Shown: positions 45,204 to 59,928 of the stretch, in pieces
Layout: every line of letters starts with the position of its first letter
Position numbering within the stretch: position 1 is the first letter of the stretch
NCBI RefSeq assembly: GCF_900128895.1
Contig: NZ_FSQW01000001.1
Span: forward strand, 248,001-312,000
Direction: 5' to 3'
Source of the DNA: Parasphingorhabdus marina DSM 22363
GTDB lineage: Bacteria; Pseudomonadota; Alphaproteobacteria; Sphingomonadales; Sphingomonadaceae
DNA length: 64,000 nt
The notes under the pieces: model-generated
What the model saw: the letters and a program-made list of their open reading frames with translations, nothing else
Database searches by the model: none
What the model was told of the DNA's origin: nothing
Program-made: the position numbers and the translations under genes

Positions 45204-45280
45204 TAAAGTCAACCAGAAAGTGAAAATAATTGCATCGTCACTGGCGTCCTCTGACACCAATTATCCGGGAGAATCGGGAA

Positions 45281-46189
45281 ATGAGAAATATGTTGAAACA
45301 TGTGGCACTGACATCATCCGCGCTGGCCTTTATCATGGGTGCGCCGGCCGCAGCGCGGACCCTCGATCCCGAAAAGCCCGAAGACGCCCTGGAAATCATG
45401 AAGCGGACCCAGTGCGGCACAGCAGATGGCGTACCGGCTGTCTATCACTGGTCCGGACGCGTCTATTCGCGGGTTCAGGGCGAGCCGGACCGGTTGCTGT
45501 TTAACGGGGAGGGCATGAATATCCGCCAATGTGTGCGGATCGAGGACCCAAAGCGGGGTGTCGGTTACCGGCAGGTCAGCCGGGAAGTGATGTTCTATCT
45601 GGATCCCAAGACCAATGAAGTGCTGCGGACCTGGGACAATCCCTGGACCGGCGAAACGGTCAAGGTAATGCAGATTGCCAATGATCCGGTAAACAGCCGC
45701 CCCAACTATCCGTACAGCGCCGACGGCAAACCTTACAAAATTTCAACCTTGCGCCGACAGGGCAAGTGGATGTTCATGCCGTTCGAAGTGCCGCTCTTTT
45801 ACCACAATGTGCTGGCGGGCGACTATCAGGATTATGTCGGCAACAAATATCACGCGATGGAAATTTTCGATTTCGCCTTCCTCGCGGACGAGATGCTCGA
45901 TACGCGCAACCCGACAGCTTATCCGACGATCAGCTGGGTGCGCATTTCGGACTGGATGCCGTGGATGAAGATGCGCGGTCGTCAGGGGCAGATGGTGTTC
46001 AATGCCATGGGCGCCAAGCTCAAAAGCTATGACGAGCTGCCCAAGGTGATCAAGGACGAGATTGCGCTCAATTATCCGGAATATACCGCACCGCCCCCGG
46101 GCGATGATCCGCGCAAGAATGAAACGACCTGGACCGTATTCAAGAAAATGATCGACGCGGAACGGGCAGCCGAGAAAGAGAAGAAGTAA
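45281..46189 (+). CDS. exported DUF1838-like protein
   Basis: A 302-residue protein with signal peptide (KHVALTSSALAFIMGAPAAARTL). The mature sequence, with QCGTADGVPAVYHWSGRVYSRVQGEPDRLLFNGEGMNIRQC, FYLDPKTNEVLRTWDNPWTGETVKVMQIANDPVN and MEIFDFAFLADEMLD, matches my memory of DUF1838, a family without a known activity. Two cysteines in the mature region could pair. Single gene with its own terminator, facing away from the CitE gene across operator 6. Confidence 0.8.
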   Translation: MRNMLKHVALTSSALAFIMGAPAAARTLDPEKPEDALEIMKRTQCGTADGVPAVYHWSGRVYSRVQGEPDRLLFNGEGMNIRQCVRIEDPKRGVGYRQVSREVMFYLDPKTNEVLRTWDNPWTGETVKVMQIANDPVNSRPNYPYSADGKPYKISTLRRQGKWMFMPFEVPLFYHNVLAGDYQDYVGNKYHAMEIFDFAFLADEMLDTRNPTAYPTISWVRISDWMPWMKMRGRQGQMVFNAMGAKLKSYDELPKVIKDEIALNYPEYTAPPPGDDPRKNETTWTVFKKMIDAERAAEKEKK

Positions 46190-46224: not shown

Positions 46225-46253
46225 GGGTCGGCTGTAACGCCGGCCCTTTTTTT
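46225..46253 (+). terminator. intrinsic terminator of the DUF1838 gene
   Basis: Eight-pair stem GGGTCGGC/GCCGGCCC (one G-U pair), six-base loop, then seven T residues on the plus strand. It directly follows the DUF1838 gene and touches the stop codon of the convergent membrane-protein gene. Confidence 0.88.
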
Positions 46254-46935
46254 AAAACGGCTTCACATTGCCGAGAAAAGCGGTAGCCAGCAGCAGCAGA
46301 TAGACAATCCAGACCCAGATTCGCGTCCGGTCCATTGTCCTCAGAAGCGGGATTTCGGTTTCGTCCGATGATCCTTCGGCGATCAGCTTGCCCAGTTGCG
46401 GACCGACCGGCTTGAACGCCACATCGATCATGATCGCGGCGGCGAAAATCAGACCGAACATCAGCGCCTTGGTCGCCAGCCAGACCGGGATCAGTGGCGC
46501 TTCATTGGCCAGGGAAGCAATGCCCAGGCCCAGATAGAAGAGCGTCAGGCCGATTTTCAGGAAGAATTCGATCATCCGGTCACGCGCAGCCCGCTCCGTC
46601 TGGTCATGGATATGCGCGTCCCAGACCAGCCACAGCCAGAAACCGCCCACCAGCCAGGCCAGAATGACGGCCCAGCCGGGCAGATCCCACCAGCCGCCGG
46701 CATCCGCCATGGTGAGCGTGATCGGCACCATCAGTGCCCAGGCCGTTCGCGGAACCATGTCCAGACTGACCAGCAGCTGCAGCAGGATGAGCCGTTGCGG
46801 CAGATCATATTTGTCCCGCTTGCGAAAATGCTGGCCGAGCATGAACACTCCAACATCTGCCCCAAGCCAGAGCACAAACAGCAGGACATGGATGAAGACC
46901 AGCAGCTGGTAATAGCTCATTGCGAAATATTCCAT
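46252..46935 (-). CDS. six-helix membrane protein, paralogue of 51939-52631
   Basis: A 227-residue integral membrane protein with about six hydrophobic helices. The first has LLVFIHVLLFVLWLGADVGVFMLG, the His-x6-Trp-x-Gly pattern seen in CopD/DUF2269-like and haem-linked small membrane proteins; the C-terminus is FLGNVKPF. The regulon contains a second member ending FLGAVKPF. Possible electron carrier or permease subunit; not assigned. ATG at 46935 with GGGGAG upstream; divergent from the MFS operon across operator 7. Confidence 0.75.
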   Translation of the reverse strand: MEYFAMSYYQLLVFIHVLLFVLWLGADVGVFMLGQHFRKRDKYDLPQRLILLQLLVSLDMVPRTAWALMVPITLTMADAGGWWDLPGWAVILAWLVGGFWLWLVWDAHIHDQTERAARDRMIEFFLKIGLTLFYLGLGIASLANEAPLIPVWLATKALMFGLIFAAAIMIDVAFKPVGPQLGKLIAEGSSDETEIPLLRTMDRTRIWVWIVYLLLLATAFLGNVKPF

Positions 46936-47002
46936 TGATACTCCCCTGCCGGATCTGAATTCCCGGTTTGTGCGAATTGCCTGGTGCAGGCGAATCAATC
47001 GC

Positions 47003-47044: not shown

Positions 47045-47146
47045 TAATTCAGAAACATGATCGTTTTCAACGGGGTTTATGGCGATGGCAACTGTGCAAA
47101 GTGGCCGTGCCTTGCCTATTCACTGCCGGAGGGGCAAAACAGCGAA

Positions 47147-48460
47147 ATGACCAGTTCAAACCCGAATATCGCTTCTGCTCCCGGAGAGCGCGGAGAATTT
47201 TCACTGGGCTGGAAAGTCCTGCTGGCCGGAGTCCTGGGTGTCGCCTGTGGTGCATCCCCCATCCCGTTCAATGTCATTGGCTTCACGGTCGCGCCACTGA
47301 CCGAAGAATTTGGCTGGACGCGGACGGAAATCCTGTTCCCGATCACGATTTTTGGCGTGATCGCTGCTTTGCTTGCGCCAGCCTTCGGATGGATGGCCGA
47401 CCGGTTTGGTGTGCGCCGGGTTGCATTGGGATCACTGCTGGCCTTTGGGCTCGCGTTCGCGGCCATCGCCCTCACCCCAACCACCAACGCACAGTCGACA
47501 CTCTATATCTATTACGCGCTCTGGTTGATGGTCGGACTGATCGGAATAGGTTCCACGCCTGTAACCTGGAGCCGGGCGATCAACATGTGGTTTTTCAAGA
47601 ACAAGGGATTGGCACTGGGCATATTGCTGCTCGGCACCAGCCTCGCCGCTATCGTCGTACCGCCGGTGGCCGAATGGGCCATCCGGGAACATGGCTGGCG
47701 GGCGATGTTCGCCATTGTCGCCGGATTTCCGCTGCTCATTGCCCTGCCGATCGGTTTTTTGCTGTTCCGCGAACCGCGACCCGAAGAGCGGCCCCAGGCG
47801 ATTGTCAGCAATGGCGGAAAACTGACCGGCGTCACCCTCGGCGAAGCCCTGCGCGATTATCGCTTCTGGCTGATCTGGCTGTCCATTCTGACCATCGCAC
47901 TGGCCTTTGGCGGCGCGTTTATCAATATGGTCCCGATCCTCAGCGACCATGGCATTTCCTCCCAGAGAGCTGCCACTGTGATGCAGATTCTGGGGATCGG
48001 AATACTTTCCGGCCGCATCATCACCGGGATGCTGCTCGATCGCTTCTGGGCCGGATATGTCGCATTCCCGTTGCTCTGTTTGCCGGCGATTTCGAGCTAT
48101 CTTCTGCTCGGGACAGACACGGCCTTTCTGCCTGTTGCGATCGGCGGGTTCCTGCTCGGCTTTGCGGCCGGCGCGGAAAGCGATTTGATCGCTTATCTGG
48201 CGAGCCGCTATTTCGGCATGCTGCACTATGGCAAGATCTATGGCATGCTGTACATGCCGTTTGGACTGGCTTCTGCGGTATCCCCGGTCCTTTATGCCAT
48301 GGTTCGCGATACCCAGGGCAGCTATGATTCGATTCTCACGGTCGCCATATTTGCCTATGTCATCGGTGGCGGACTGCTGCTGCTCCTCGGCAAATATCCG
48401 GAAGCCTTTGGCCGACCCGAAGAGGAACCGGACACAGAGGAGGCAGTGACCGCGACATGA
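47147..48460 (+). CDS. MFS transporter, monocarboxylate/OFA-like
   Basis: A 12-helix MFS protein of 437 residues from the ATG at 47147 (MTSSNPNIASAPGERG). An ATG at 47057 gives 30 more residues but lies 13 bases from the operator and has no ribosome site, so the shorter form is preferred with moderate confidence. GWMADRFGVRRVALGSLLAFG is the loop 2-3 motif. It likely imports or exports a carboxylate. First gene of the operon transporter-nitrilase-methyltransferase-small partner-SDR, all with ATGA or TGATG overlaps. Confidence 0.85.
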   Translation: MTSSNPNIASAPGERGEFSLGWKVLLAGVLGVACGASPIPFNVIGFTVAPLTEEFGWTRTEILFPITIFGVIAALLAPAFGWMADRFGVRRVALGSLLAFGLAFAAIALTPTTNAQSTLYIYYALWLMVGLIGIGSTPVTWSRAINMWFFKNKGLALGILLLGTSLAAIVVPPVAEWAIREHGWRAMFAIVAGFPLLIALPIGFLLFREPRPEERPQAIVSNGGKLTGVTLGEALRDYRFWLIWLSILTIALAFGGAFINMVPILSDHGISSQRAATVMQILGIGILSGRIITGMLLDRFWAGYVAFPLLCLPAISSYLLLGTDTAFLPVAIGGFLLGFAAGAESDLIAYLASRYFGMLHYGKIYGMLYMPFGLASAVSPVLYAMVRDTQGSYDSILTVAIFAYVIGGGLLLLLGKYPEAFGRPEEEPDTEEAVTAT

Positions 48461-49623
48461 ATGTCGACCGCCGGCAACTCATGGCAACAGCAATTTGCGC
48501 CGCCATGGCTACCGGTGCTCTCGCAAGAACCGCAACCGAAGATATGACGAGCAGTGACAAGGACAATATGACAGAAACCACCAATTATGCCGCCGTCGCG
48601 ATGCAACTTGCCGCGCGGTCTGTCGAGAAAGCAGCTGATCGGACAGAGGCGCGTGCGCAAATGCTTGCCATGATCGGGGAAATCGAAACAAAGATCCGCT
48701 CGGCCACGATTTTCATCCAGCAATATGCGGGCAATCCGGTGAAGCTGGCCGTCCTCCCCGAATATCTCCTGACCAGTTATCCGGGACGTATTTCGATACC
48801 GGATTTTGCGGAAAAGGCGGCGCTGGAAGTTGATGGCCCGGAATATGAAGCGCTCGGAGCCATGGCGCAACGGCTCGGCATGTTCATCGCCGGCAATGCC
48901 TACGAGGTCGACGCCAATTTCCCGGATATCTATTTTCAGACCAGCTTTGTCGTGGCACCGTCCGGTGATGTCGTACTGCGCTACCGCCGGCTCAACAGCA
49001 TGTTCGCCCCGACACCCCATGATGTCTGGTCGAAATATCTCGATATCTACGGACTGGATGGCGTTTTTCCGGTCGCCCGAACCGAAATCGGAAACCTCGC
49101 TGCGATCGCGTCCGAGGAAATTCTCTATCCGGAAATCGCCCGAGCTCACGCCCTGCGCGGTGCCGAAATATTCGTGCACAGCAGTTCCGAAATCGGTTCG
49201 CCGCTGGACACGCCCAAGGATGTCGGCAAGCGCGCCCGGGCACAGGAAAACATGGCCTATGTGATCTCGGCCAATACCGCCGGCATTGAAGGCAGCGCCC
49301 TCCCGCTGGCGTCGGCGGACGGCAACAGCATGATCGTCGATTACAAAGGCCGGGTGATGTCCGAATCCAACAGCGGCGAAACCTTTACCGCCTTTGCCGA
49401 TATTGACCTCAACGCATTGCGCCGGACAAGACGCAAGCCGGCCATGACCAATTTTCTCGCCCGCCAGCGGCTGGAACTGTTCGCAGCCACTTACGGAGAA
49501 ATGTCGGTCCAGAAGGCGGATGGTTTGATCCAGGACAATGACATCCGGACGCCAGATCGGGATTATTTTCTTCGCACCCAGGAACAAACGATTGAACGCA
49601 TGATCAAGGATGGTTTGATATGA
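48457..49623 (+). CDS. exported nitrilase-fold protein with Ser at the Cys position
   Basis: A 388-residue carbon-nitrogen hydrolase homologue with a possible Tat leader (DRRQLMATAICAAMATGALA). The Glu is kept (Glu102 in LPEYLLTSYPG). The expected Lys is Arg178 (RYRRLN) and the nucleophile is Ser219, aligned with Cys by the following YPEIAR and LRGAEIFV. It is therefore further altered than its regulon companion at 19815. Either an unusual hydrolase or a non-catalytic binding protein. ATGA overlaps on both sides. Confidence 0.8.
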   Translation: MNVDRRQLMATAICAAMATGALARTATEDMTSSDKDNMTETTNYAAVAMQLAARSVEKAADRTEARAQMLAMIGEIETKIRSATIFIQQYAGNPVKLAVLPEYLLTSYPGRISIPDFAEKAALEVDGPEYEALGAMAQRLGMFIAGNAYEVDANFPDIYFQTSFVVAPSGDVVLRYRRLNSMFAPTPHDVWSKYLDIYGLDGVFPVARTEIGNLAAIASEEILYPEIARAHALRGAEIFVHSSSEIGSPLDTPKDVGKRARAQENMAYVISANTAGIEGSALPLASADGNSMIVDYKGRVMSESNSGETFTAFADIDLNALRRTRRKPAMTNFLARQRLELFAATYGEMSVQKADGLIQDNDIRTPDRDYFLRTQEQTIERMIKDGLI

Positions 49624-50864
49624 CTAGCAAAACTCCGGAAAATCAGAAACTTGATGTTCCCCCGCCCTACAATGCCGTAGCCCGCCACGGGGTGTCGGCC
49701 GAACCGAATCACGATGAAATCGCGCGATTCAACTTCCTCGCAAACTTCAACAAGTTCATGGCGAGTGAACTGAGCCCGGGCAACAAGCTGGCCTATGACA
49801 AACGGGTTCTGCCGGCATTCCAGAAAACCCATGGCCGCGAACCGAAAGACCGGTTCGAGATCCGGCATGCAATGAACGATGATCCCTTCCACCGCTTCTG
49901 GTCCGCGCTGAAACGCAATTCGATGGAAATGCGCCAGCAAAATGGCCGGGCCATGGTCCTGCGGCAGATTGACGAAATCAACGCGAAAGCGCGCCAGTTT
50001 AACGAGGGCCGGGACACGCTGGAACTGCATCCGGAAATCGAAATACCCCGCTACCAGAGTGCGGTCGACATCCATTGCATGCCGGGCAGCTATCATGGCG
50101 AAGAGCTGCCGGGAGATGTCTCGGCCGGCGCCAATTATGATTGCGGAATATTCGCGACAACCGGTGGCGGTCTTGGTGCGCTGACTGATGGTGGCGGGCA
50201 GGCACTGGTCAAGTGGATCAGGGAAACCCGCCCGGGCTGGGAACCGCGCCGGGTGCTGGATATCGGCACCACGGTCGGTCACAATATCGTCCCGCTGGCG
50301 CTGGCATTTCCGAATTGTGAGTTTATCGCCATCGATACCGCCGCGCCGATCCTGCGCTATGCCCATGCTCGCGCGCAATCGCTCGGAGCAACCAATATCC
50401 GGTTCATTCAGGCCAATGCCGAAGACCTGTCCCGCTGGGATGACGGCACGTTTGACTGGGTGCAGACGACGATGTTCCTGCACGAAACCAGCGGCAAGGC
50501 ACTGCCAAAGATTCTGGCCGAGGGCTATCGGGTGCTCGCCGATGACGGCCTGATGCTGCATCTCGAACAGCCGGAATATTCCGACGAAATGCCGCTCTAC
50601 GAGCAGTTCATCCGCGACTGGGACGCGTTCAACAATAACGAACCCTTCTGGTCCTCCATGCATGCACTCGACATGAAAGACGAAATGGTCAGCGCGGGAT
50701 TTGATCGCAGCGAGCTGTTCGAAACCGGGGTCCGCGCTGTGGTCGATACCGAAATCTTCCCGCAATCCGATACCGAGGAAGGGGAAGATCATGGCCGTGC
50801 CGCATTCTGGCATGCCTATGGCGCCTGGAAAAATCGCGATGAACTGCAGGAGGCTGCAGAATGA
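49620..50864 (+). CDS. class I SAM methyltransferase-like protein, copy 1
   Basis: A 414-residue protein. Residues about 35-180 form a family-specific N-terminal domain (AYDKRVLPAF, LEIHP-type strand LHPEIEIPRYQSAVDIHCMPGSY); residues about 205-330 are a methyltransferase-like domain with loop VLDIGTTVGHN instead of the usual D-x-G-C-G-x-G, then FIAIDTAAPILRYA and DLSRWDDGTFDWVQTTMFLHE. Copy 2 at 54761 has the same layout. SAM use is not certain given the altered loop. Always followed by a small helical partner gene. Confidence 0.8.
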   Translation: MTSKTPENQKLDVPPPYNAVARHGVSAEPNHDEIARFNFLANFNKFMASELSPGNKLAYDKRVLPAFQKTHGREPKDRFEIRHAMNDDPFHRFWSALKRNSMEMRQQNGRAMVLRQIDEINAKARQFNEGRDTLELHPEIEIPRYQSAVDIHCMPGSYHGEELPGDVSAGANYDCGIFATTGGGLGALTDGGGQALVKWIRETRPGWEPRRVLDIGTTVGHNIVPLALAFPNCEFIAIDTAAPILRYAHARAQSLGATNIRFIQANAEDLSRWDDGTFDWVQTTMFLHETSGKALPKILAEGYRVLADDGLMLHLEQPEYSDEMPLYEQFIRDWDAFNNNEPFWSSMHALDMKDEMVSAGFDRSELFETGVRAVVDTEIFPQSDTEEGEDHGRAAFWHAYGAWKNRDELQEAAE

Positions 50865-51223
50865 CCGATCAGGCTTTTGACTGGATGGCCGCCGCCAACA
50901 AGAAGGCGAAAGGCAAACGACCGGAATATTTCGACGATCCCGAAGACGAGCGGATGCTGTCGATCCTGATGGCGGTTGTCGGCGAGGTATCGGTATTGCG
51001 TGAACGACTGGACACGGTCGAACGGCTGCTGGAAAGCAAGGGCAGCATTACGCGTTCCGACATTGACAGCTATGAGCCCGATCGCGATGCTGCCTATGAA
51101 CGCGGTGCGATGGCCCGCGAATATATCTACCGGGTGATGCGGGGTCCGCAGCAGATGGTCGAGGAACTGGAACAAGCCGAACCGCCTGTCGAACATATCA
51201 GCGAGGAACTGAAGGAGATTTGA
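50861..51223 (+). CDS. small helical partner of methyltransferase copy 1
   Basis: A 120-residue, highly charged, mainly helical protein not known to me. PEYFDDPEDERMLSILMAVVGEVSVLRERLDTVERLL matches the small protein at 54498 (PQFFNDPGMDRFVAVVMNMAQEMWVQEERLMALEGL), so both are one family; the helix has coiled-coil character. Position directly after, and overlapping, the methyltransferase gene in both operons suggests an obligate subunit. Confidence 0.7.
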   Translation: MTDQAFDWMAAANKKAKGKRPEYFDDPEDERMLSILMAVVGEVSVLRERLDTVERLLESKGSITRSDIDSYEPDRDAAYERGAMAREYIYRVMRGPQQMVEELEQAEPPVEHISEELKEI

Positions 51224-51942
51224 TGCAGATTGCCGGAAAGCGCGCGATTGTCACCGGGGGAACCGATGGCATTGGCCTCGAAATTGCCCGGCTGCTGCAA
51301 TCAAAAGGTGCCCGTGTGCTGGTCTGCGGGCGCAATGCCGAGCGGCTGGAACAGGCGCGCAAGGCAGGTTTTGACGCCGTTTCCGCAGATCTCTCCACGG
51401 CGGAAGGTTGCGCCGGATTGCTGGCGGAGCTGCAGGGCGAAGACATTGATATTCTCGTCAACAATGCCGGCATGGCAGGCAATTTCGGTCCGGATGATCC
51501 GCTTGATCTGAACTTTACCGACAAGGCGATTTTCCTGAATCTCAATGCACCGATGCACTTGATCGGGTCCCTGTTGCCGCAGCTGAAATCGCGTCCCGAA
51601 GCCACCATCGTCAATGTGACGTCCGGCCTCGCCATCGCGCCGCGCGGCGGCGGTCCTGTCTATTGCGCCACCAAGGCCGGGCTGAGAAGCTTTACCCAGG
51701 CGCTGCGCCACAATCTGAAGGACAGCTCTGTCCATGTGGTCGAAGCCTTGCCGCCGGTTGTTGATACCAACATGACCGCTGCTCGTGACGGCAACAAAAT
51801 GTCATCGGCAGAATGCGCCGCGCAAATCGTCGCGGCCGTCGAGAGCGGTCGCGACGAAGCCAATGTCGGAATGGTAAAAATACTTCAGCTGGTAAACAGC
51901 ATTTCACCGGCGCTGGCGCGGAAGATCATGATCCGGTTCTAG
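51223..51942 (+). CDS. short-chain dehydrogenase, DltE-like
   Basis: A 239-residue SDR: TGGTDGIGLEIARLL (cofactor loop), NNAGMAG, catalytic Ser in NVTSGLA and YCATK. CGRNAERL after strand 2 suggests NADP(H). It starts at the ATG at 51223 (TGATG with the preceding stop). The stop codon shares the palindrome CTAG with the convergent membrane-protein gene. Confidence 0.87.
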   Translation: MQIAGKRAIVTGGTDGIGLEIARLLQSKGARVLVCGRNAERLEQARKAGFDAVSADLSTAEGCAGLLAELQGEDIDILVNNAGMAGNFGPDDPLDLNFTDKAIFLNLNAPMHLIGSLLPQLKSRPEATIVNVTSGLAIAPRGGGPVYCATKAGLRSFTQALRHNLKDSSVHVVEALPPVVDTNMTAARDGNKMSSAECAAQIVAAVESGRDEANVGMVKILQLVNSISPALARKIMIRF

Positions 51943-52631
51943 AACGGCTTCACAGCTCCCAGGAAACAGACGCTGGCAATGGTGATCCAGTAGATATAGG
52001 CCGAAATACGGGCCTGCCCGATCTCGCGTTCGAGCGCTGCCTCCTGCTCGGCATCCGGTCCTTGTGCAAGGATCCGGAACCGCTCGGTCCATCGCCGCAT
52101 GACCAGCCGCAGGAACAGGCCGATGCACAAGGCAAAGGCGTACAGACCCATTTTTGCCGGGTACCAGAAATTGCCCGGTCCGGACTCGATCGGGCCACTG
52201 CCGCCGAATGACATGAATGTCAGCACAATCAGTGCGAGAATCAGCGGATAGCGTAATTTTTCTTCGAGCATGGTGACCGTGATGCCGATATCGGTTTCGC
52301 GCTTGATAAAGGCCGTCCACGTCATCGCGAGCCAGATCGCGAAGAACAGCCACATCCACCAGATTCCGGCCCCGTCGAGAAGCGGAACAAAGCCGTAAAT
52401 CTTGCCCATGTGCAGGCCAAGCGGAAGCAGCAGCACAATGCCGGTACGCGCCAGAATATCGATGCGATAGGCCGTTTCCATATGCCGCCGCCGCTCTTCC
52501 AGCGACAGTTCCCGATTGGTCACATGATAGCTGGTCTGGAACACGCCCCATTCGCCGCCCAGCCAGTAGACCATCGCCAGAATATGAATCCACCGCAAAA
52601 TGCTCAGTTCATTGGCTGTCAGAAATTCCAT
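51939..52631 (-). CDS. six-helix membrane protein, paralogue of 46252-46935
   Basis: A 230-residue membrane protein. ILRWIHILAMVYWLGGEWGVFQTS holds the His-x6-Trp-x-Gly-Gly pattern in helix 1, and RISAYIYWITIASVCFLGAVKPF closes the protein much as in its paralogue. Five to six helices. GGAGGG lies nine bases before the ATG. Divergent from 52752 across operator 8. The paired His/Arg residues near helix ends leave a haem or metal site open. Confidence 0.75.
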   Translation of the reverse strand: MEFLTANELSILRWIHILAMVYWLGGEWGVFQTSYHVTNRELSLEERRRHMETAYRIDILARTGIVLLLPLGLHMGKIYGFVPLLDGAGIWWMWLFFAIWLAMTWTAFIKRETDIGITVTMLEEKLRYPLILALIVLTFMSFGGSGPIESGPGNFWYPAKMGLYAFALCIGLFLRLVMRRWTERFRILAQGPDAEQEAALEREIGQARISAYIYWITIASVCFLGAVKPF

Positions 52632-52669
52632 ATTTTGCGTCCCTCCGCATCCATCCCTGTTCTGCCCCT

Positions 52670-52687
52670 AATTTGTCCGGACAAATT
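52670..52687. promoter_or_regulatory. GntR-regulon operator, site 8 (perfect)
   Basis: AATTTGTCCGGACAAATT, perfect 18-base palindrome between the divergent starts at 52631 (minus) and 52752 (plus). Confidence 0.88.
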
Positions 52688-52751
52688 TAACTTGGCAAGT
52701 GAAAAATGCGCTGGCATGAAGAAAGACCATGAGACAGGCTGGGAGACAGGC

Positions 52752-53480
52752 ATGAAACACCGCATCATCGAGGGGCGGCTGGAATATACTTCGCGCAAGC
52801 CGGAAATGGAGGGACAGAACCGCGGGTTTGAAACCTTCATGTTCACCCACCACAGCGATGGCAAGGTCACCATGCGCGCCCATTGCGAGATCTATGAGCC
52901 CGAACCCACGGTGATGCGGGACATAATCTACGCCATGGACGAGAATCGCCAGCCGATGGATCTGCATGTCCGGCTCACCGTTGGCGATGAATTTATGGGA
53001 TCCGGCTGGATGCTGTTCGATGGTGAACAGATCGAAATGCAAAGCTATGGCCCGTCCATTGGCCGGTTGTCGCAAAAAGTGTCCGCGGAACTGCCGCTTG
53101 ACGGCTTTGGCACCCACCCGATCGTGTCCGACGGGTTCATGCTGTCGACCAAGGACTGGGACGAAACTGACAAGCGCCTGCTCAATTGCTACCTGCCCTC
53201 ACCCGATCATCGCGGCGCGACACCGCCGCAAATTGCCCAGGTCAAGATCGGCGCCGTCTATATCGGCAAGGAGGAAATCACCGTGCCTGCCGGAACCTTC
53301 CAGTGCAAACATCTGCAATTTGTCGATGACAGCAGCATTGTCCCTGGCACCGGCGGCATGGCCGGCGAGCACCCACCCTATGATGTGTGGATCACCGATG
53401 ACGAAGACGGGATATTTGTCCAGGGCGGTGTCGGCGGCTACATGATGACCTGGTATGAACTGGTCGAGTTGAAGCGGTAG
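52752..53480 (+). CDS. cytoplasmic beta-rich protein of unknown function
   Basis: A 242-residue protein without a signal peptide that I do not recognise. It is beta-rich (RLEYTSRKPEMEGQNRGFETFMFTHHSDGKVTMRAHCEI; VGDEFMGSGWMLFDGEQIEMQSYGPSIG), with a layout like DUF3108 or lipocalin-type barrels: paired strands, a central SDGFM loop and a VPAGTFQCKHLQFVD strand. VPAGTFxCxH is a motif of DUF3108-like proteins. ATG at 52752 has GGGAG upstream; an ATG at 52716 is less well placed. Single gene under operator 8. Confidence 0.6.
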   Translation: MKHRIIEGRLEYTSRKPEMEGQNRGFETFMFTHHSDGKVTMRAHCEIYEPEPTVMRDIIYAMDENRQPMDLHVRLTVGDEFMGSGWMLFDGEQIEMQSYGPSIGRLSQKVSAELPLDGFGTHPIVSDGFMLSTKDWDETDKRLLNCYLPSPDHRGATPPQIAQVKIGAVYIGKEEITVPAGTFQCKHLQFVDDSSIVPGTGGMAGEHPPYDVWITDDEDGIFVQGGVGGYMMTWYELVELKR

Positions 53481-53481
53481 A

Positions 53482-54501
53482 TCAGGCCTTGATCATAACC
53501 TTGCCCATATGGGCCCCGCTTTCGAGATGCGCATAGGCCTCTGCTGCCGCTTCAAATTCAAATACGCTTTCGACCAGCAGCTCGATTCCGTTTTCGGTCA
53601 CAACATCCAGCGCTTTTTGCAGCATGTCGCGGCTGCCGGAGGCGATTCCCTTGATCGTGATATTCTTGCCAATCAACGCTCCCTGACTGGCGCTGGACTG
53701 GGCCTGCGGCGTACCCGACAGGGCGCCCAGCGTGCCGATCCTCGCGTTGACCGCACAGGCTTCCACCGTCTGTTCCATCGCCGGGAAACCGAGCGTATCG
53801 ACAACCACATCGGCGCCTCGGCCACCTGTTGATTCGAGCAGCGCGGCCGCCCAGTCTGGCCGGTCCCGGTAATTGACCAGGTGATCCGCGCCCATATCTT
53901 TCGCCCGGGCAAGTTTTTCGTCACTCGACGAGCTGATCGCGAACTTCATGCCCATGGCCTTGGCGAGCTGCAGCGCAAAAATCGATACGCCACCGGTACC
54001 CTGAGCCAGGACAAGATCGCCCGGCTTCGCATCCCCAAAAGCCATCATCGCATGCCACACAGTACTGCCAACCACCGAGAAGGTGGCTGCGCTGTTGTCG
54101 CTGACCGAATCTGGTACGACAATCGCCGCATCCGCGGGCAGCAAGATCATTTCAGCCAGCCAGCCATTGGCGGTGACCCCGAGATCCTGCGCAAAAACAC
54201 CGAACCCATAGGGTCCATCCTGCCAAGTCACGAAATGCGGCGCGAGCACCCGCTGACCGGCGGCCAGTCCTGATACGCCATCTCCAACAGCTTCAATCAC
54301 ACCCACACCGTCCGACAGCGGCACCCGGTCCGCAGGCAGATCGGTGCCATAGTCGCCGCGCAAGACCATCAGGTCGCGATAGTTCAGGCCGGCGGCCGAA
54401 ACCCGCACCAGAACTTCTCCCGCTCCGGGCACCGGATCAGGCAGTTCTCCCAGTTGCAGTCCGTCAATCCCGCTTCGCGGACCGATTTGCCAGGCCTTCA
54501 T
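53482..54501 (-). CDS. zinc-independent alcohol-dehydrogenase-family oxidoreductase
   Basis: A 339-residue MDR protein. AAGLNYRDLMVLRGDYG replaces the zinc-binding GxCxTD segment, and no structural-zinc Cys cluster is seen. GTGGVSIFALQLAKAMG is the nucleotide loop. Likely an enoyl reductase or NADPH-linked carbonyl reductase. It is the last gene of the leftward operon 59928-53482 and overlaps the small partner gene by ATGA. Confidence 0.85.
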   Translation of the reverse strand: MKAWQIGPRSGIDGLQLGELPDPVPGAGEVLVRVSAAGLNYRDLMVLRGDYGTDLPADRVPLSDGVGVIEAVGDGVSGLAAGQRVLAPHFVTWQDGPYGFGVFAQDLGVTANGWLAEMILLPADAAIVVPDSVSDNSAATFSVVGSTVWHAMMAFGDAKPGDLVLAQGTGGVSIFALQLAKAMGMKFAISSSSDEKLARAKDMGADHLVNYRDRPDWAAALLESTGGRGADVVVDTLGFPAMEQTVEACAVNARIGTLGALSGTPQAQSSASQGALIGKNITIKGIASGSRDMLQKALDVVTENGIELLVESVFEFEAAAEAYAHLESGAHMGKVMIKA

Positions 54502-54761
54502 GATTCGTCACTCCCCGATTCGCGCAAAGGCGCAAAAATACGGTCGATAAACTGCTTCAGCTTCGCTTCCCGGTCCTCCGAAGAAGCGTCCAGTCCTTCC
54601 AGTGCCATCAACCGCTCTTCCTGCACCCACATCTCCTGCGCCATGTTCATCACCACAGCAACAAACCGGTCCATGCCCGGATCATTGAAAAATTGCGGTT
54701 GCCCATCCGGACCGTACAGATCCTTGGGCGTGTCATCCGGTTTGAATTCGGGTTCAGCCAT
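54498..54761 (-). CDS. small helical partner of methyltransferase copy 2
   Basis: An 87-residue charged helical protein homologous to 50861-51223 over the N-terminal 45 residues (both contain P-x-FF/YF-x-DP-x-x-x-R followed by a long helix with EERL/RERL). The ATG at 54761 overlaps the methyltransferase stop as ATGA, which rejects a longer start at 54791. No known domain. Confidence 0.68.
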   Translation of the reverse strand: MAEPEFKPDDTPKDLYGPDGQPQFFNDPGMDRFVAVVMNMAQEMWVQEERLMALEGLDASSEDREAKLKQFIDRIFAPLRESGSDES

Positions 54762-55948
54762 CAGCGCTTCCACGCCCCGAAGCCAAACCACATGATCCCC
54801 TCGGCGAGGCGGCCGGTGGTTTCGCTGTCGACTGCATTGGCATCCTCATTTGCAATGGCTTCGGCCACAGCATCCACCCCGTAAATGCCGATGCTGGGGA
54901 CAACAAACTGAAAATAGTCATCGGCCGCAAAACCGCCGGTTTCGCAGAGCTGTTTGGGGTCTTCGTCCCGATAGCCCTTGTAGAAGGGCTCGCTGTTATA
55001 CCAGCTGTCCCAGTCGAGATAGAAGCCGTCAAATGCGTTCATCTGGTCATTGGGCGGCAGCTCCATGTGCAACAGCAGACCGCCCGGTTTCAACACCCGA
55101 TTGGCTTCGGCAAAAGCCTGCGCGCGCGTCTTTTTGGACAGCTCATGCAGGAACATGGACGAGAAAACGAGATCGAAGCTATTATCCTCATAGTCCAGCG
55201 CATCTGCGCTCATCTGCCGGAAATGGACCTCCTGGCCCTGCATCTTCGCCCGCGCCGAAGCATAGCGCAAACCGCCCGCAGCCGCATCGATTGCTTCGAC
55301 ATGCGCATCCGGATAGGTCTGTTTCCAGGGCAAGGTATTGTGGCCAATGGTACAGCCGGTATCGAGAATGCGCTCGGGCCGGAAGTCAGGGAACTTGCCT
55401 GACACATAGGCGGCCATGGAGAGACCGATATCATCGAGATTGGCGCCCATCAGGCCCATGGAAAAAACCGCCAGCCCCTGGTCATAGACCGCGCCTGCCT
55501 CAAGCGAAGGTCCGCCCCGCGTATAGCTGCCTGGCATCAGGTGCACCTCAATCGCATCCACATTGCGCGGGATTTCCAGATCGGGGTCCAGCGTGACCGA
55601 GCCCGGCCCCGCTTCCACAGCCGCCGCTTCCTTCTCCATCCGTTCCAGGTCACGATCAACAACGGCACCCGCCGCATTCCACACCATTTTCTGGGCCTGA
55701 ACCCGCATCGCCGAATAGATATTGAACGCCGGATCTCCGCGCAGCGCCTGATGCGCTTCATTGCTGGTTTCGGGCGGGCGCCCGGCTTTTCGCACAAAGG
55801 CCGGAGCCGCCCTTTTGTCATAGGCGGTTCGCATGTCCGCCGCGAGATCGTTGAGAATGAAAGACCGGATTCCCGATACAAACCGCCCGCGGGCCGCCTC
55901 GTCCGGGGACAACTCGGGTTTCATAGGATGCTGTAACTCCACGCCCAT
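54761..55948 (-). CDS. class I SAM methyltransferase-like protein, copy 2
   Basis: A 395-residue paralogue of 49620. Shared landmarks: AYDKRAAPAF, LDPDLEIPRNVDAIEVHLMPGSY, SAM-loop position ILDTGCTIGHN (about 194-204), AIDAAAGGLRYASARA and FDLVFSSMFLHELS. It ends with FGFGAWKR where copy 1 ends with a longer tail after YGAWKN. Lies between the aldehyde dehydrogenase and its small partner. Confidence 0.8.
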   Translation of the reverse strand: MGVELQHPMKPELSPDEAARGRFVSGIRSFILNDLAADMRTAYDKRAAPAFVRKAGRPPETSNEAHQALRGDPAFNIYSAMRVQAQKMVWNAAGAVVDRDLERMEKEAAAVEAGPGSVTLDPDLEIPRNVDAIEVHLMPGSYTRGGPSLEAGAVYDQGLAVFSMGLMGANLDDIGLSMAAYVSGKFPDFRPERILDTGCTIGHNTLPWKQTYPDAHVEAIDAAAGGLRYASARAKMQGQEVHFRQMSADALDYEDNSFDLVFSSMFLHELSKKTRAQAFAEANRVLKPGGLLLHMELPPNDQMNAFDGFYLDWDSWYNSEPFYKGYRDEDPKQLCETGGFAADDYFQFVVPSIGIYGVDAVAEAIANEDANAVDSETTGRLAEGIMWFGFGAWKR

Positions 55949-56016: not shown

Positions 56017-57438
56017 TCAAAAATTCTGCTCGGCAAAGGCGTCTATCACCGCAGCCTCTCCGCTCTGCCGGATCAGCGCCTGCTTGCGGAAGAAGCGCAT
56101 CAACCCGCTTTCACCCATCCGCGATGCGCCAAGACCCGAATATCCGAAACTCGATTTTTCCGCCTCCCATATCATGGAGGTCAATGACCCGTCATTTATC
56201 GAAACGGCGCCAGCCTGAAGACGCGATGCCACGGCTTCCGCTTTCGCAATGTCGGACCCGATAACCGCCGCCGAGAGACCGAACTGACTGTCATTGGCGA
56301 GGCCGATGGCCTCCTCAACATCGTCGTAGATCGTGACCGGAATAACCGGACCAAAATTCTCCTCGCGGATGATATCCATTTCGGCACTCACCCCGGTCAG
56401 CACCGTCGGCCGCAAATAAAGGCCACCGTCAAGATTCTCCACCTCGCCGCCTGCCCTGACTGTCGCGCCTTGCTCGACCGCCTGGTCGATCTGGTGTTGC
56501 GCGATCTGCGCTTGTTTTTCGAAAATAAAGGGCCCGATATGGCCTTCAGCAATGTCTGGATGATTCAGCCTGACGGCATCCGCCTGATTGACAAGACTGT
56601 CGAGAAACGGTTCCGCAATAGCGCGCGCAACATAGACCCGCTCGATCGACTGGCAGGCCTGACCGGTATTGACGATACTCGCACGCAGTGCGACCGATGC
56701 TGCCTTTTCCGGTTCAGCATCGGGCAAAATGATCATCGGATCTTTCCCGCCGAGTTCCAGACTGGCCGGAATGAAGGCCTTGGCCGCTGCTTCACCCACC
56801 TTGCGACCCGTCGCGACCGATCCGGTGAAGCAGACATAGTCGACATGCGCGATCATCGCTGCACCGGTCGCGCCATCACCTTCGATTATGGACAATATAG
56901 ATGCCAGTTCGGGGGTGTTTCGAACGGTTTCCATCAATGGCCGAATGAAGCGTGGCGTGACTTCCGACGGCTTGATCAAGACGGCTGACCCTGCCATGAG
57001 CGCCGGTATCGCGTCGATCAGCGCGAGGGTCATCGGGAAATTCCACGGACTGATCACCCCGACCAGCGAATAGGGAACAAGCCGCGTTGATGTGGTGATT
57101 GTGGGCACCGAGGTCGGTTCCCCGCTTGGTTGCGCAGAGGCAATCAACGCCGGTGCGGAATTGGCCCAGCGACGGATCTGGCCGGGCACGCCAGCGGCTT
57201 CGATTTTCGATATTCCACCGCGTCCGGTGTCATCGGTCAGGGCCGGAATAATCGCTCCCAGATGCGCCTCAATCGCATCTGCCCATTGCAGCAGAATTTC
57301 TCCGCGCTGTTCCGGCGTCTTCGCAAGCCATCCTGTTTGTCCGACCCGCAGTCGCGCGGCTTCGGCTGCGACCGCCGCCTCATCAAGCGGAGCGATTTCG
57401 TGATCCGGCTTGCCGGTCCGCGGATTGCGTATCTTCAT
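56017..57438 (-). CDS. NAD(P)-dependent aldehyde dehydrogenase
   Basis: A 473-residue ALDH-superfamily enzyme: ISPWNFP, FTGSVATGRKV (cofactor), general base Glu228 in LELGGKDP and catalytic Cys262 in NTGQACQSIERV. It oxidises an aldehyde or semialdehyde to acid, a natural step after the amine oxidase or after ring opening. The ATG at 57438 overlaps the deacetylase stop (ATGA). Confidence 0.92.
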   Translation of the reverse strand: MKIRNPRTGKPDHEIAPLDEAAVAAEAARLRVGQTGWLAKTPEQRGEILLQWADAIEAHLGAIIPALTDDTGRGGISKIEAAGVPGQIRRWANSAPALIASAQPSGEPTSVPTITTSTRLVPYSLVGVISPWNFPMTLALIDAIPALMAGSAVLIKPSEVTPRFIRPLMETVRNTPELASILSIIEGDGATGAAMIAHVDYVCFTGSVATGRKVGEAAAKAFIPASLELGGKDPMIILPDAEPEKAASVALRASIVNTGQACQSIERVYVARAIAEPFLDSLVNQADAVRLNHPDIAEGHIGPFIFEKQAQIAQHQIDQAVEQGATVRAGGEVENLDGGLYLRPTVLTGVSAEMDIIREENFGPVIPVTIYDDVEEAIGLANDSQFGLSAAVIGSDIAKAEAVASRLQAGAVSINDGSLTSMIWEAEKSSFGYSGLGASRMGESGLMRFFRKQALIRQSGEAAVIDAFAEQNF

Positions 57439-58358
57439 GGGCGCGCTTTCCAATTGTCGAGCAGCACATCACCACGGGTAAAGCCGACGTCCGGACGGTC
57501 GGCCATCGCGGCGACCAGCTTTTCGAAACTGCCAATCCGGTATGGCAGACCCATGATGTAAGGTGTCAAATGCATGGGCAGCATGCGGCCGCCATAATGT
57601 CCGGCTTCGTCCACCAGCCAGTCCGCTGCATCGGTCATCTGCTGCGCATAGCTGTCGACCGACTGCTGCTGAACATTGATGATCTGGCGATCCGACAGTT
57701 CGTGGTTGAGCGGGATATTGACGATTTCTCCGGCATCCGTGCGAAACTTGTAGGGCAGTTCGTCATTGACCCAGTCACACATGTAATCGAGCCCGGCTTC
57801 GACCAGCAGTTTCGCCGTGTGAAAACTCTGTGACCGGGCGATGGACAACCAGCCACGCGGGCGCTGACCCGTCACTTTGTCGAGCATATCGAGCGACTCA
57901 TTGATCAGGGCGCGCTCGGCATCCTCTTCCATTCCGCTCGCAATCGTGCCGTTCATGTCGGTTGAATGGGCGATGATCTCATGGCCACCCTGGAGGATAT
58001 CCTCGATCAATTGCGGATATCGCTCCGCCACCTTGCTGTTGGTTGCCACCGAGATGCTGGCACCCACTTTCTCGAACGCGCCCAGCAGACGATAGATGCC
58101 GATCCGCGTACCATATTCCCGGGCGGTATAGTGCCGGTAGTCGGGATAGGCCGTCTGCATGTGCCCCGGTGCACGGAACGGATCATCGCTGGGGACCATC
58201 GGAAAATATTCGAGACTGATAACCGGCCAGACCAGCAATTTCACCTGATTTGGCCAAAGAACCGGTTCGCGCTTGAAAAAATGGGTCCAGGGATAATGAT
58301 CGTGATCCATCCCGCGCCCGCGCTTCGGATATTCGAGGTAGCTGCTGTCGAGGCTCAT
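57435..58358 (-). CDS. polysaccharide-deacetylase-fold hydrolase, copy 2
   Basis: A 307-residue NodB-fold protein: LLVWPVISLEYFPM (first motif strand, lacking the usual Asp-Asp), GHEIIAHSTDMNG (His motif), GWLSIARSQSFHTAKLLVEAGLDYMCDW (third motif). The order and spacing parallel its neighbour at 58355 and the PuuE-like protein at 31936. Adjacent tandem copies suggest two successive amide hydrolyses or a heteromer. Confidence 0.78.
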   Translation of the reverse strand: MSLDSSYLEYPKRGRGMDHDHYPWTHFFKREPVLWPNQVKLLVWPVISLEYFPMVPSDDPFRAPGHMQTAYPDYRHYTAREYGTRIGIYRLLGAFEKVGASISVATNSKVAERYPQLIEDILQGGHEIIAHSTDMNGTIASGMEEDAERALINESLDMLDKVTGQRPRGWLSIARSQSFHTAKLLVEAGLDYMCDWVNDELPYKFRTDAGEIVNIPLNHELSDRQIINVQQQSVDSYAQQMTDAADWLVDEAGHYGGRMLPMHLTPYIMGLPYRIGSFEKLVAAMADRPDVGFTRGDVLLDNWKARP

Positions 58359-59248
58359 GCGGCATCTCCCGTCTGCGCCCGAAACCGGTCAACAATGTCT
58401 CCGGCCCTGGTGATCCAGGCCCGGCCGTCAGCGGCGATATGTTCCAGCACCGATTCAAACGGCCCGATGCGATGCGGTTGTCCGATCAAATAGCTGTGCA
58501 AGGGAATGCACATGACGGTGCCAGATTGGGCGCCCTCTTCCGCAAGCCGGTCATATTGCCGGATCAGCGTGTCGGCATATTCGCGGGGAGACATGTTGTA
58601 GATAAAAAAGCCATAATGATCGTTGACCTCGAGGCTATAGGGAATTGCCGTCAGCTGACCCGACTTGACCTTCACGTCAGTGGGCTGGTCGTCATGATAG
58701 AGGTCGCAGGTATAATCCATGCCATATTCGGCGAGCAGGTCCAGCGTCCGCGGCGTGTGGGTCAGGGCCGGGGCCAGCCAGCCGCGAATACGCTGTCCGG
58801 TCGCCCGTTCCACGGTGGCGATGCTGTCTTCGATAATCGCCCGTTCCTGGGCTTCGTCCATGCCGTAACTGTACCGGGTATTGTAGATGCCGTGGCTGAA
58901 AAACTCCCAGCCGCGCTGGTTCGCATCTTCGACGACCTCCGGAATATGATCACAAAGTGCGACCGACAGGCTGACCGAACCCGGGAAACCGTGCTTTGTC
59001 ATCATCTCCGCCATGCGCCAGTGGGACACTCGGTTGGCATGATCGCGGTGGCTGTAACCAACCACATCGGGATGCGGTTTCGGCCAGCTTTTGCGATGCG
59101 GATTGGCTGCGGGGTCGAGCTCATAAAATTCCAGATTGGGCGCGACCCAGACTGCGCAGGTCTTGCCCTCCGGCCAACTGATTTTCGGCCGTTTTCGCCA
59201 GGGCTGATAATCGTAAAGCCCCGGATCCGGTTTCTGCGCATCTGCCAT
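58355..59248 (-). CDS. polysaccharide-deacetylase-fold hydrolase, copy 3
   Basis: A 297-residue NodB-fold protein: CAVWVAPNLEFYELDP (strand 1), GWEFFSHGIYNTRYSYGMDEAQERAII (the SHG-x-x-x-x-R motif of the PuuE branch), GWLAPALTHTPRTLDLLAEYGMDYTCDLY. Probably a metal-dependent C-N hydrolase. Its start shares a base with the stop of the cysteine hydrolase gene that leads the operon. Confidence 0.8.
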   Translation of the reverse strand: MADAQKPDPGLYDYQPWRKRPKISWPEGKTCAVWVAPNLEFYELDPAANPHRKSWPKPHPDVVGYSHRDHANRVSHWRMAEMMTKHGFPGSVSLSVALCDHIPEVVEDANQRGWEFFSHGIYNTRYSYGMDEAQERAIIEDSIATVERATGQRIRGWLAPALTHTPRTLDLLAEYGMDYTCDLYHDDQPTDVKVKSGQLTAIPYSLEVNDHYGFFIYNMSPREYADTLIRQYDRLAEEGAQSGTVMCIPLHSYLIGQPHRIGPFESVLEHIAADGRAWITRAGDIVDRFRAQTGDAA

Positions 59249-59928
59249 CAGCGCGCCTCCAGCCAGTCGATCACGGCCTGCACCGGTTCGACATCGGCAT
59301 ATTTGATCTGCAGGTCGGTGAGATTGGCGAAATGATAGCTTTCATGCTTGTCGGCACAGGTTTCGACCGGAACAATCGTCCGATAGCCATGACTCAAGGC
59401 ATCTACTGCGGTTGCCCGGACACAGCCGGATGTTGAGCCACCGGTCACAATCACGGTGTCGACCTTGTGCCAGATCAGATAACTGGCGAGGGGTGTTTCG
59501 AAAAAGGCGCTGGGCATGCGTTTCGTATATTGCAAGTCATCCTTGCCGATCTCGCATCGGGGATCCAGCTTGTGCCGCTCGCTGTCATATTTGATGTTCT
59601 GCAGCGAATCTTCAGTGTCGGTCCGCGTGCCCCAGACCCCGGCATCGCCGGCGTCGTCCTTGTAGGCCACCCGGCTCCAGATAACCGGCATGTTCTTGTC
59701 CCGCGCCAGTCCGGAAATCCGGTTGATATGGTCGATCTGACGGGGATCGGTTTCATAGGCGGTCTTGAACAGATCGGTGCGCGTGTAGGCTTGCTGCACG
59801 TCCACATTGACGATCGCCAGTTTCTCGCCGAATCCGAATTTCTTGCGGGCAGGATTGCTCATCAATTCTTCGAAAATCTCCCGGGCGGTCCGTCCGTCCT
59901 CGACCATTTTCGTTCCAACCAGTGCCAT
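59248..59928 (-). CDS. isochorismatase-fold cysteine hydrolase, N-carbamoylsarcosine-amidase-like
   Basis: A 226-residue isochorismatase-superfamily protein with the complete amidohydrolase triad: Asp43 in VNVDVQQAY, Lys136 in YTKRMPSAFFET and Cys169 in GGSTSGCVRATA. The TSGCVRAT form is typical of N-carbamoylsarcosine amidase and related ureidohydrolases, which release ammonia and CO2 from a carbamoyl amine or hydrolyse an amide. First gene of the leftward operon 59928-53482. Confidence 0.88.
   Translation of the reverse strand: MALVGTKMVEDGRTAREIFEELMSNPARKKFGFGEKLAIVNVDVQQAYTRTDLFKTAYETDPRQIDHINRISGLARDKNMPVIWSRVAYKDDAGDAGVWGTRTDTEDSLQNIKYDSERHKLDPRCEIGKDDLQYTKRMPSAFFETPLASYLIWHKVDTVIVTGGSTSGCVRATAVDALSHGYRTIVPVETCADKHESYHFANLTDLQIKYADVEPVQAVIDWLEAR

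Follow-up and report, generated by a model that had tools for sequence, protein, structure and literature searches.

The window analysed here, a stretch of 64,000 nucleotides from Parasphingorhabdus marina DSM 22363 (contig NZ_FSQW01000001.1, positions 248,001 to 312,000), holds two copies of an overlapping gene pair that encodes a large methyltransferase-like protein and a small partner, the two copies lying on opposite strands. On the forward strand, large A (49620..50864, 414 aa, supported by its sequence and by the family alignment) is followed by small A (50861..51223, 120 aa); on the reverse strand, large B (54761..55948, 395 aa), a paralogue of large A, is followed by small B (54498..54761, 87 aa counted from the ATG at 54761). 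The stop codon of large A is joined to the start of small A by an ATGA overlap and that of large B to the start of small B by a TGATG overlap; a GTG 10 codons upstream of the small B ATG is merely the mechanical start of the open reading frame (ORF). A sequence-only reading of this DNA had described a duplicated two-gene module with an altered motif I loop, D-x-G-x-T-x-G-H-N, and a P-x-F-x-DP-like motif in the small partner, and the module is present as described. Large A and large B are homologous (35% identity over 396 aa, E 1e-72) and so are small A and small B (35% over 37 aa, E 7e-7), each value coming from a single pairwise comparison. The motif I loop reads DIGTTVGHN in large A (residues 214–222, 50259..50285 on the forward strand) and DTGCTIGHN in large B, and the motif of the small proteins reads RPEYFDDP in small A and QPQFFNDP in small B.

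The layout of large A was transferred, together with the helices of small A, from the model of a relative (locus L024) that is about 53–54% identical to large A. It comprises a predicted N-terminal helical domain (about residues 1–130) and a predicted class I methyltransferase domain (about 205–404), and the segment linking them carries P143, H152 and G156, which are invariant in the family alignment. Pfam assigns general methyltransferase domains to the large proteins (Methyltransf_25 and Methyltransf_11), and among the best 25 matches listed the first 150–170 or so residues lie outside every Pfam and NCBIfam match. The best NCBIfam model for both large proteins is NF043040 (CpaM, corrinoid protein-associated methyltransferase); their scores of 46.2 and 68.1 bits fall under its curated cut-off of 180, which places both outside that family. 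In the L024 model, the methyltransferase domain has a predicted local distance difference test score (pLDDT) mostly above 90, and the top VIA-align match is UbiG with S-adenosylhomocysteine (SAH) (4kdr; Z 18.0, root-mean-square deviation 3.2, 200 aligned residues), followed by SgMT, Coq5 with S-adenosylmethionine (SAM) (Z 17.5) and, no more than two Z units lower, a long series of other methyltransferases. The majority of structural matches start at model residues 122–184; some (MfnG, RedM, DnrK, BchU and others) start at 1–34 or 98, so that N-terminal parts are drawn in.

Conservation over 100 aligned family members agrees with this assignment. The motif I aspartate (D214) is Asp in 97 rows and Glu in 3, G216 is kept in 98 and G220 in all 100, while the beta-2 acid (D239) is Asp in 97 and Glu in the remaining 3. 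Further invariant or nearly invariant residues are P143, H152, G156, Q264, D279, H288, E289, R304, G310, N339 (98 rows) and E341 (99 rows), among which the His288-Glu289 pair that follows strand beta-4 (50481..50486, forward strand) is found in 100 of 100 rows. The Rossmann-like fold of the model, as superposed on UbiG, and the conserved motif I and beta-2 acid are those of a class I methyltransferase, and on the strength of the model this is the fold of the large protein. The middle glycine of motif I varies (Thr in 59 rows, Ser in 19, Ala in 11, Gly in 8, other residues in three), and the sequence-only reading had taken the unusual glycine pattern to mean that the cofactor may not be SAM. 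The 89 of 100 rows with Thr, Ser or Ala in its stead do speak for that proposal, but glycine occurs at the variable place in 8 rows, the other two glycines, the aspartate and the beta-2 acid are conserved throughout the family, and the fold and the nearest structures, SAH- and SAM-bound methyltransferases among them, are those of SAM enzymes. A cofactor other than SAM is thus extremely improbable and was rejected; the conserved SAM-site residues and the structural matches favour SAM. Compared with the class I enzymes of the UbiE/UbiG/Coq5 type (Methyltransf_25/_11), which have the same catalytic fold and SAM-site residues, the large protein adds its 150–170 N-terminal residues, the His-Glu pair after beta-4 and the partner gene.

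Neither the small protein nor the N-terminal region of the large one reaches a Pfam or NCBIfam cut-off, although excisionase-like families match small B below threshold (Pfam DUF1233 at 18.3 bits against a cut-off of 22; PHROG 539 at E 0.006), and a sequence search for solved relatives of the small protein gave one chance-level match (E 0.34). Trm112 is a small zinc-binding protein with conserved cysteines that partners class I methyltransferases and is able to serve several enzymes, and the archaeal Trm112-activated methyltransferase Hvo_0019/Trm112 (6f5z) is matched by the catalytic domain of the large protein with Z 16.2. In contrast to Trm112, the small protein is predicted to be all-helical, the small part of the L024 model consisting of helices only, and its consensus (61 rows) lacks cysteine, so that the conserved cysteines of a zinc-binding Trm112-type protein are absent.

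A neighbourhood search, as proposed in the sequence-only reading, found the small gene beside the large one in most instances. Searching the window's own genome with large B gave five places, namely both window copies, two related genes and a fifth place that matches weakly (E 9e-5). The third pair (L003, C2:1320083) has its small gene upstream, at 899–1243 before the large gene at 1258–2349, and the fourth (L004, C2:1331922) has it downstream, at 2232–2522 after the large gene at 1198–2235, with an ATGA overlap. Relatives in named genomes were then scanned at the best 80 loci of 150, among which Sphingomonadales are the largest group by record title, other titles being Xanthomonadales genera, Rhodospirillaceae, Gammaproteobacteria, Nostoc, Symploca and Binatota. 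Culture-collection strains with the pair include Erythrobacter cryptus DSM 12079 (L012), Niveispirillum irakense DSM 11586 (L050) and Stenotrophomonas terrae DSM 18941 (L020). The analysis set of 100 large ORFs includes four from the window's own genome and leaves out the window copies (L001, L002) and two short matches (L005, L079|2|559). A small-family ORF lies within 500 bp on the same strand for 79 of the 100, downstream in 71 and upstream in 8; the latter indicate that the link survives rearrangement. Three small ORFs in the same loci are without a large ORF of their own within 500 bp on their strand. Two loci with the pair (L042, L052) are on contigs titled Klebsiella pneumoniae; their nearest neighbours in the tree are L070 and L046, titled Gammaproteobacteria and Steroidobacteraceae, so that the Klebsiella title looks doubtful.

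Genomes were also searched whole. Among 119 genomes of the window's family, the large gene is present in 28 and the small gene in 29 (73 large and 75 small genes in total), and this co-presence has a Fisher p of 2e-26, a value that ignores the kinship of the genomes. The extra genome (G048) has the small gene only, as a marginal match (E 3.7e-4) with a stop, and the one other small match left unpaired in the family, in G113, also has a stop (E 1.6e-4). A small gene lies within 400 bp on the same strand for 68 of the 73 large genes (63 downstream, 5 upstream), and for each of the remaining five, a small gene with no other partner lies farther along the same contig, on the same strand, at distances of 1.6, 5.0, 9.0, 10.2 and 15.1 kb. 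Of 398 genomes sampled from the phylum, both genes occur in four, one of which is the window's own, and are adjacent every time; a fifth (G496) has a partial match to the large gene only (124.6 bits). In the family of genome G129, the same 13 of 41 genomes carry both genes, for which 1/C(41,13) = 6e-11 without correction for kinship; in a sample of its order, where the small gene alone was sought, 2 of 60 genomes have it, G129 included. Summed across searches, all 51 wholly searched genomes with a clear large gene also have a small gene: 28 in the family (the window's own included), 3 new ones in the phylum, 11 among genomes with lone large genes and 9 new ones in the G129 family. In this sum, G123 has the same places as G030, and G496 and G048 speak against it.

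Plasmids carry the pair as well. Large A matches eight plasmid records, and in all eight the best small A match adjoins the large one; the annotation of Sphingomonas sp. JE1 plasmid pJE1 names the two genes 'class I SAM-dependent methyltransferase' and 'hypothetical protein'. On an Antarctobacter plasmid found with large B, a 76-aa protein overlaps the start of the methyltransferase and matches the small-protein profile at E 2e-10. One further record, Novosphingobium sp. ES2-1 plasmid p1, is matched by small A alone. There (L089, 8783–9333), an intact small gene follows a 59-aa C-terminal remnant of a large gene, which shares 81% identity across 52 aa with the C-terminal end of the L044 protein, and the large profile has no other match in 18 kb around it. 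The pair is real and is kept together far beyond chance. When the large proteins are arranged in a tree, paired members occur in most of the main branches, even in the remotest, and lone ones in several, and for this reason we read pairing as probably ancestral, with adjacency lost repeatedly; the tree was built by a quick method, with several long branches and a midpoint root.

Large and small proteins also diverge together. Across the 79 adjacent pairs, the distance matrices of the two correlate with r 0.852 (the best of 1000 permutations reaches 0.13), and in seven loci that hold two pairs, the own small protein fits better than that of the neighbouring pair in all 14 comparisons made, eight of them contributed by the window's locus in four closely related copies. 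A complex was modelled with AlphaFold2 by joining the large gene of L024 and the small gene next to it into a pseudo-fusion, in which the intervening stop was read as Ser and 51 aligned rows were used. The result has 523 residues, of which 394 (0.75) belong to the large part, with a mean pLDDT of 87.9 and a predicted template modelling score (pTM) of 0.86. The joining stretch (398–418) falls under pLDDT 50, and the small part consists mainly of helices at 428–460, 476–493 and 495–509. Since the large part accounts for only 0.75 of the residues, a pTM of 0.86 would not be reached unless the small part had a defined place beside it, a placement judged from pTM and not from contacts. Natural fusions of the two proteins were not noticed, with no systematic search for them made, and three very long frames (L027, L044, L079) have no second domain by eye.

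With the linkage of the genes, their shared presence across genomes, the co-divergence and the confident L024 model all in its favour, a physical complex of the two proteins is a well-supported prediction. The account that fits best, and that is probably correct though still some way from secure, is that the genes of each pair code for the two subunits of a SAM-dependent methyltransferase which belongs to a catabolic operon and has a small molecule as its substrate. Catalysis would fall to the large protein, whose class I methyltransferase domain follows a helical N-terminal domain peculiar to the family and an invariant H-x-x-P-G-x-Y-like segment, and SAM would occupy its usual site. The small helical protein would be an accessory subunit, probably serving to fold the enzyme or to close its substrate pocket. 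His288 and Glu289, with His152, Asn339 and Glu341, may hold the acceptor or take a proton from it, perhaps with a divalent metal at the centre; COMT-like enzymes have a catalytic His in a similar place. A class I methyltransferase that has a small helical subunit of its own would be a new arrangement inside a known class and not a new class.

The closest parallels for the active site come from the O-methyltransferases RebM and CysG/BelI, small-molecule enzymes whose sequences match the large-family profile. In a profile alignment, RebM (3bus) has His-His where the large family has H288-E289. In the portion of PMC11408123 drawn on here, the His122-His123-Asp191 site of CysG/BelI is described as binding Ca2+, single replacements at this metal site have effects that range from none to strong, and a small partner goes unmentioned. 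By analogy, a metal site of this kind could be made up of His288-Glu289 and an acid farther along the chain, for instance E341; the second His is Glu in the large family, and E341 as third ligand is a guess. Descriptions of the large–small pair were not found among the papers listed from an open-access library, most subscription papers lying outside that search, and the main text of PMC6946804 contains no methyltransferase term.

Several observations weigh against a two-subunit enzyme of this kind. No small ORF lies within 500 bp of 21 of the 100 large ORFs, two close relatives of large A (L056, L058) being among them; no diverged small gene was detected beside these 21 at E 5, and a comparison of 20 lone with 79 paired large proteins, from which L055|1|1693 was omitted as remote, gave no diagnostic residue difference at the thresholds used. 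In expanded genomes, the share without a small gene within 500 bp on either strand rises to 56 of 64 large genes in G120 and 39 of 70 in G129. Some of the own correlations are weak (0.33 for L078; 0.51 and 0.04 for L082), and co-inheritance in an operon would by itself raise the mirror-tree r, so that co-divergence indicates a unit of inheritance and not binding. A second pseudo-fusion in which the small protein stands in front (L078, 50 rows) reached a pTM of 0.72 with a poorly defined small part, and the modelling comprises these two large–small fusions. Moreover, a methylation step is unusual in catabolism, and the gene neighbours are too varied to name a substrate. The idea that linkage implies a complex is accordingly supported by the linkage itself, co-occurrence, co-divergence and the L024 model, and is left short by the L078 model and by the many unlinked large genes of expanded genomes. 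As for large genes routinely lacking the small one, a finding that the sequence-only reading had named as fatal to it, this does occur in part at the level of the operon, in G120 and G129, but not at that of the genome.

The expanded genomes raise the alternative that the small protein acts in trans on several large paralogues as their common activator or chaperone, a Trm112-like hub, rather than as a one-to-one subunit. Small genes are present in every one of the 12 genomes that were searched on account of lone large genes, and the copies of the large and small gene number 64 and 8 in G120, 58 and 5 in G122, 27 and 5 in G121, 45 and 22 in G127, 53 and 28 in G128, 70 and 36 in G129 and 61 and 34 in G130. 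Large genes thus outnumber small ones, while 7 of 8 small genes in G120 and 31 of 36 in G129 adjoin a large one (within 500 bp, either strand). A hub would account for such proportions; it fits poorly with the near-equal numbers in the window's family and with the co-divergence of own partners, and is considered improbable. In the G129 family, 13 of 41 genomes carry at least 18 large and at least 12 small copies; copy numbers from this family and from the phylum sample are lower bounds, the candidates scored per genome being capped at 46 in the former and at 4 and 12 in the latter, and many of the expanded genomes are metagenome assemblies whose completeness is not stated. The genomes with 45–70 large and 5–36 small copies (G120, G122 and G127–G130, for loci L027, L033, L073, L075, L083 and L085) are titled Alphaproteobacteria or Rhodospirillaceae, and tandem runs of large genes were seen at L033 (four), L083 (three) and L028 (two).

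It is also conceivable, if quite improbable, that the two proteins do not bind each other and that the small one is a regulator or passenger of the same operons. The existence of lone large genes, the poor L078 model, the small gene kept beside a large remnant on plasmid p1 of ES2-1 and the excisionase-like matches of small B would all suit this. Opposed to it are the fact that the pair persists, while the other neighbours change, in loci with such different labels as Sphingomonadales, Xanthomonadales, cyanobacteria and Binatota, the changes of gene order, and the confident placement of the small part in the L024 model.

The immediate neighbours across loci include zinc-type dehydrogenases, carbon-nitrogen hydrolases, aldehyde dehydrogenases, major facilitator superfamily (MFS) transporters, nitroreductases, DUF1330, DUF1838 and DUF3598 proteins, the commonest flanking families being zinc-type dehydrogenases (8 of 58 downstream) and carbon-nitrogen hydrolases (6 of 68 upstream). 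At nine loci of expanded genomes, flavin adenine dinucleotide (FAD)-dependent oxidoreductases, alpha/beta hydrolases and DctP-type binding proteins are among the surrounding genes. The genes in these sets were called by a crude program, so that some frames are spurious; the sets cover 68 of 69 upstream genes (without L003:148-735), 64 of 69 genes at the nine expanded-genome loci (five overlapping ones left out) and 54 of 81 at twelve other loci (near-copies and overlapping frames left out). Judged from these gene families, the context looks like the catabolism of some organic compound. Such degradative neighbours, for which methylation has no obvious need, lend some weight to a further alternative, in which the methyltransferase fold has been reused, with SAM or SAH as a structural or polarising ligand, for another reaction (decarboxylation, hydroxylation, a lyase or an isomerase). 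The structural matches include DnrK relatives as well as RdmB (1qzz, Z 16.7) and SpnF (4pne), two proteins that by their entry titles set a precedent, and up to 70 copies per genome suggest a broad chemical role. Ordinary methyltransferases occupy the same Z range, however, and the sequence has lost none of the features of a methyltransferase, so that reuse of the fold is regarded as unlikely, and a two-subunit methyltransferase continues to be preferred.

A bolder proposal, put forward tentatively and with the odds judged to be against it, is that of an undescribed two-component methyltransferase superfamily in which the small helical subunit, acting in cis or as a trans hub, would serve up to 70 paralogues per genome in an unrecognised, possibly metal-dependent activation of diverse environmental organic compounds, a role that might compare with that of the expanded catabolic enzyme families reported for SAR202. 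Protein families kept as a fixed pair are a promising place to look for enzymes not yet described. Should the pair prove to be an enzyme, proteins that carry no annotation beyond 'class I SAM-dependent methyltransferase' would have to be assayed together with the adjacent 'hypothetical protein', and the tens of copies in some aquatic bacteria suggest an unrecognised reaction of importance for the breakdown of organic matter. Of most interest are the compound acted on, the part played by the small subunit and the reason for dozens of copies in some bacteria.

In the window, each pair is embedded in a run of overlapping genes. Operon A, on the forward strand, begins with an MFS transporter (47057..48460) and continues with a carbon-nitrogen hydrolase (48457..49623) that overlaps large A, large A, small A and a short-chain dehydrogenase (51223..51942) that shares one base with the end of small A, consecutive overlaps being of 1 to 4 bases. 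Operon B, on the reverse strand, consists of large B, small B and a zinc-type, quinone oxidoreductase-like dehydrogenase (53482..54501) that overlaps the end of small B. Operon A is flanked by two small membrane-like proteins on the reverse strand (46252–46998 and 51939–52631), which are homologous to each other (26% over 232 aa, E 7e-23) and without a Pfam match; these too are consequently duplicated inside the same island. A DUF1838 protein is encoded at 45230–46189 on the forward strand (E 4e-68), a family that occurs near the pair at other loci too. The window also holds aconitase-like, isochorismatase-like and deacetylase-like genes and, as judged by eye, a gene like those of coenzyme A (CoA) transferases. 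One gene run on the reverse strand (57435–59928) contains two adjacent polysaccharide-deacetylase-like proteins and an isochorismatase-like protein, and a further deacetylase-like gene was noted elsewhere in the window by eye. Finally, two proteins resembling carbon-nitrogen hydrolases, that of operon A (48457–49623, forward strand) and one at 19815–20969 on the reverse strand, have N-terminal signal-like sequences; the assignment of the second and both signal-like sequences were judged by eye, and the two proteins suggest a nitrilase-family step outside the cytoplasm.

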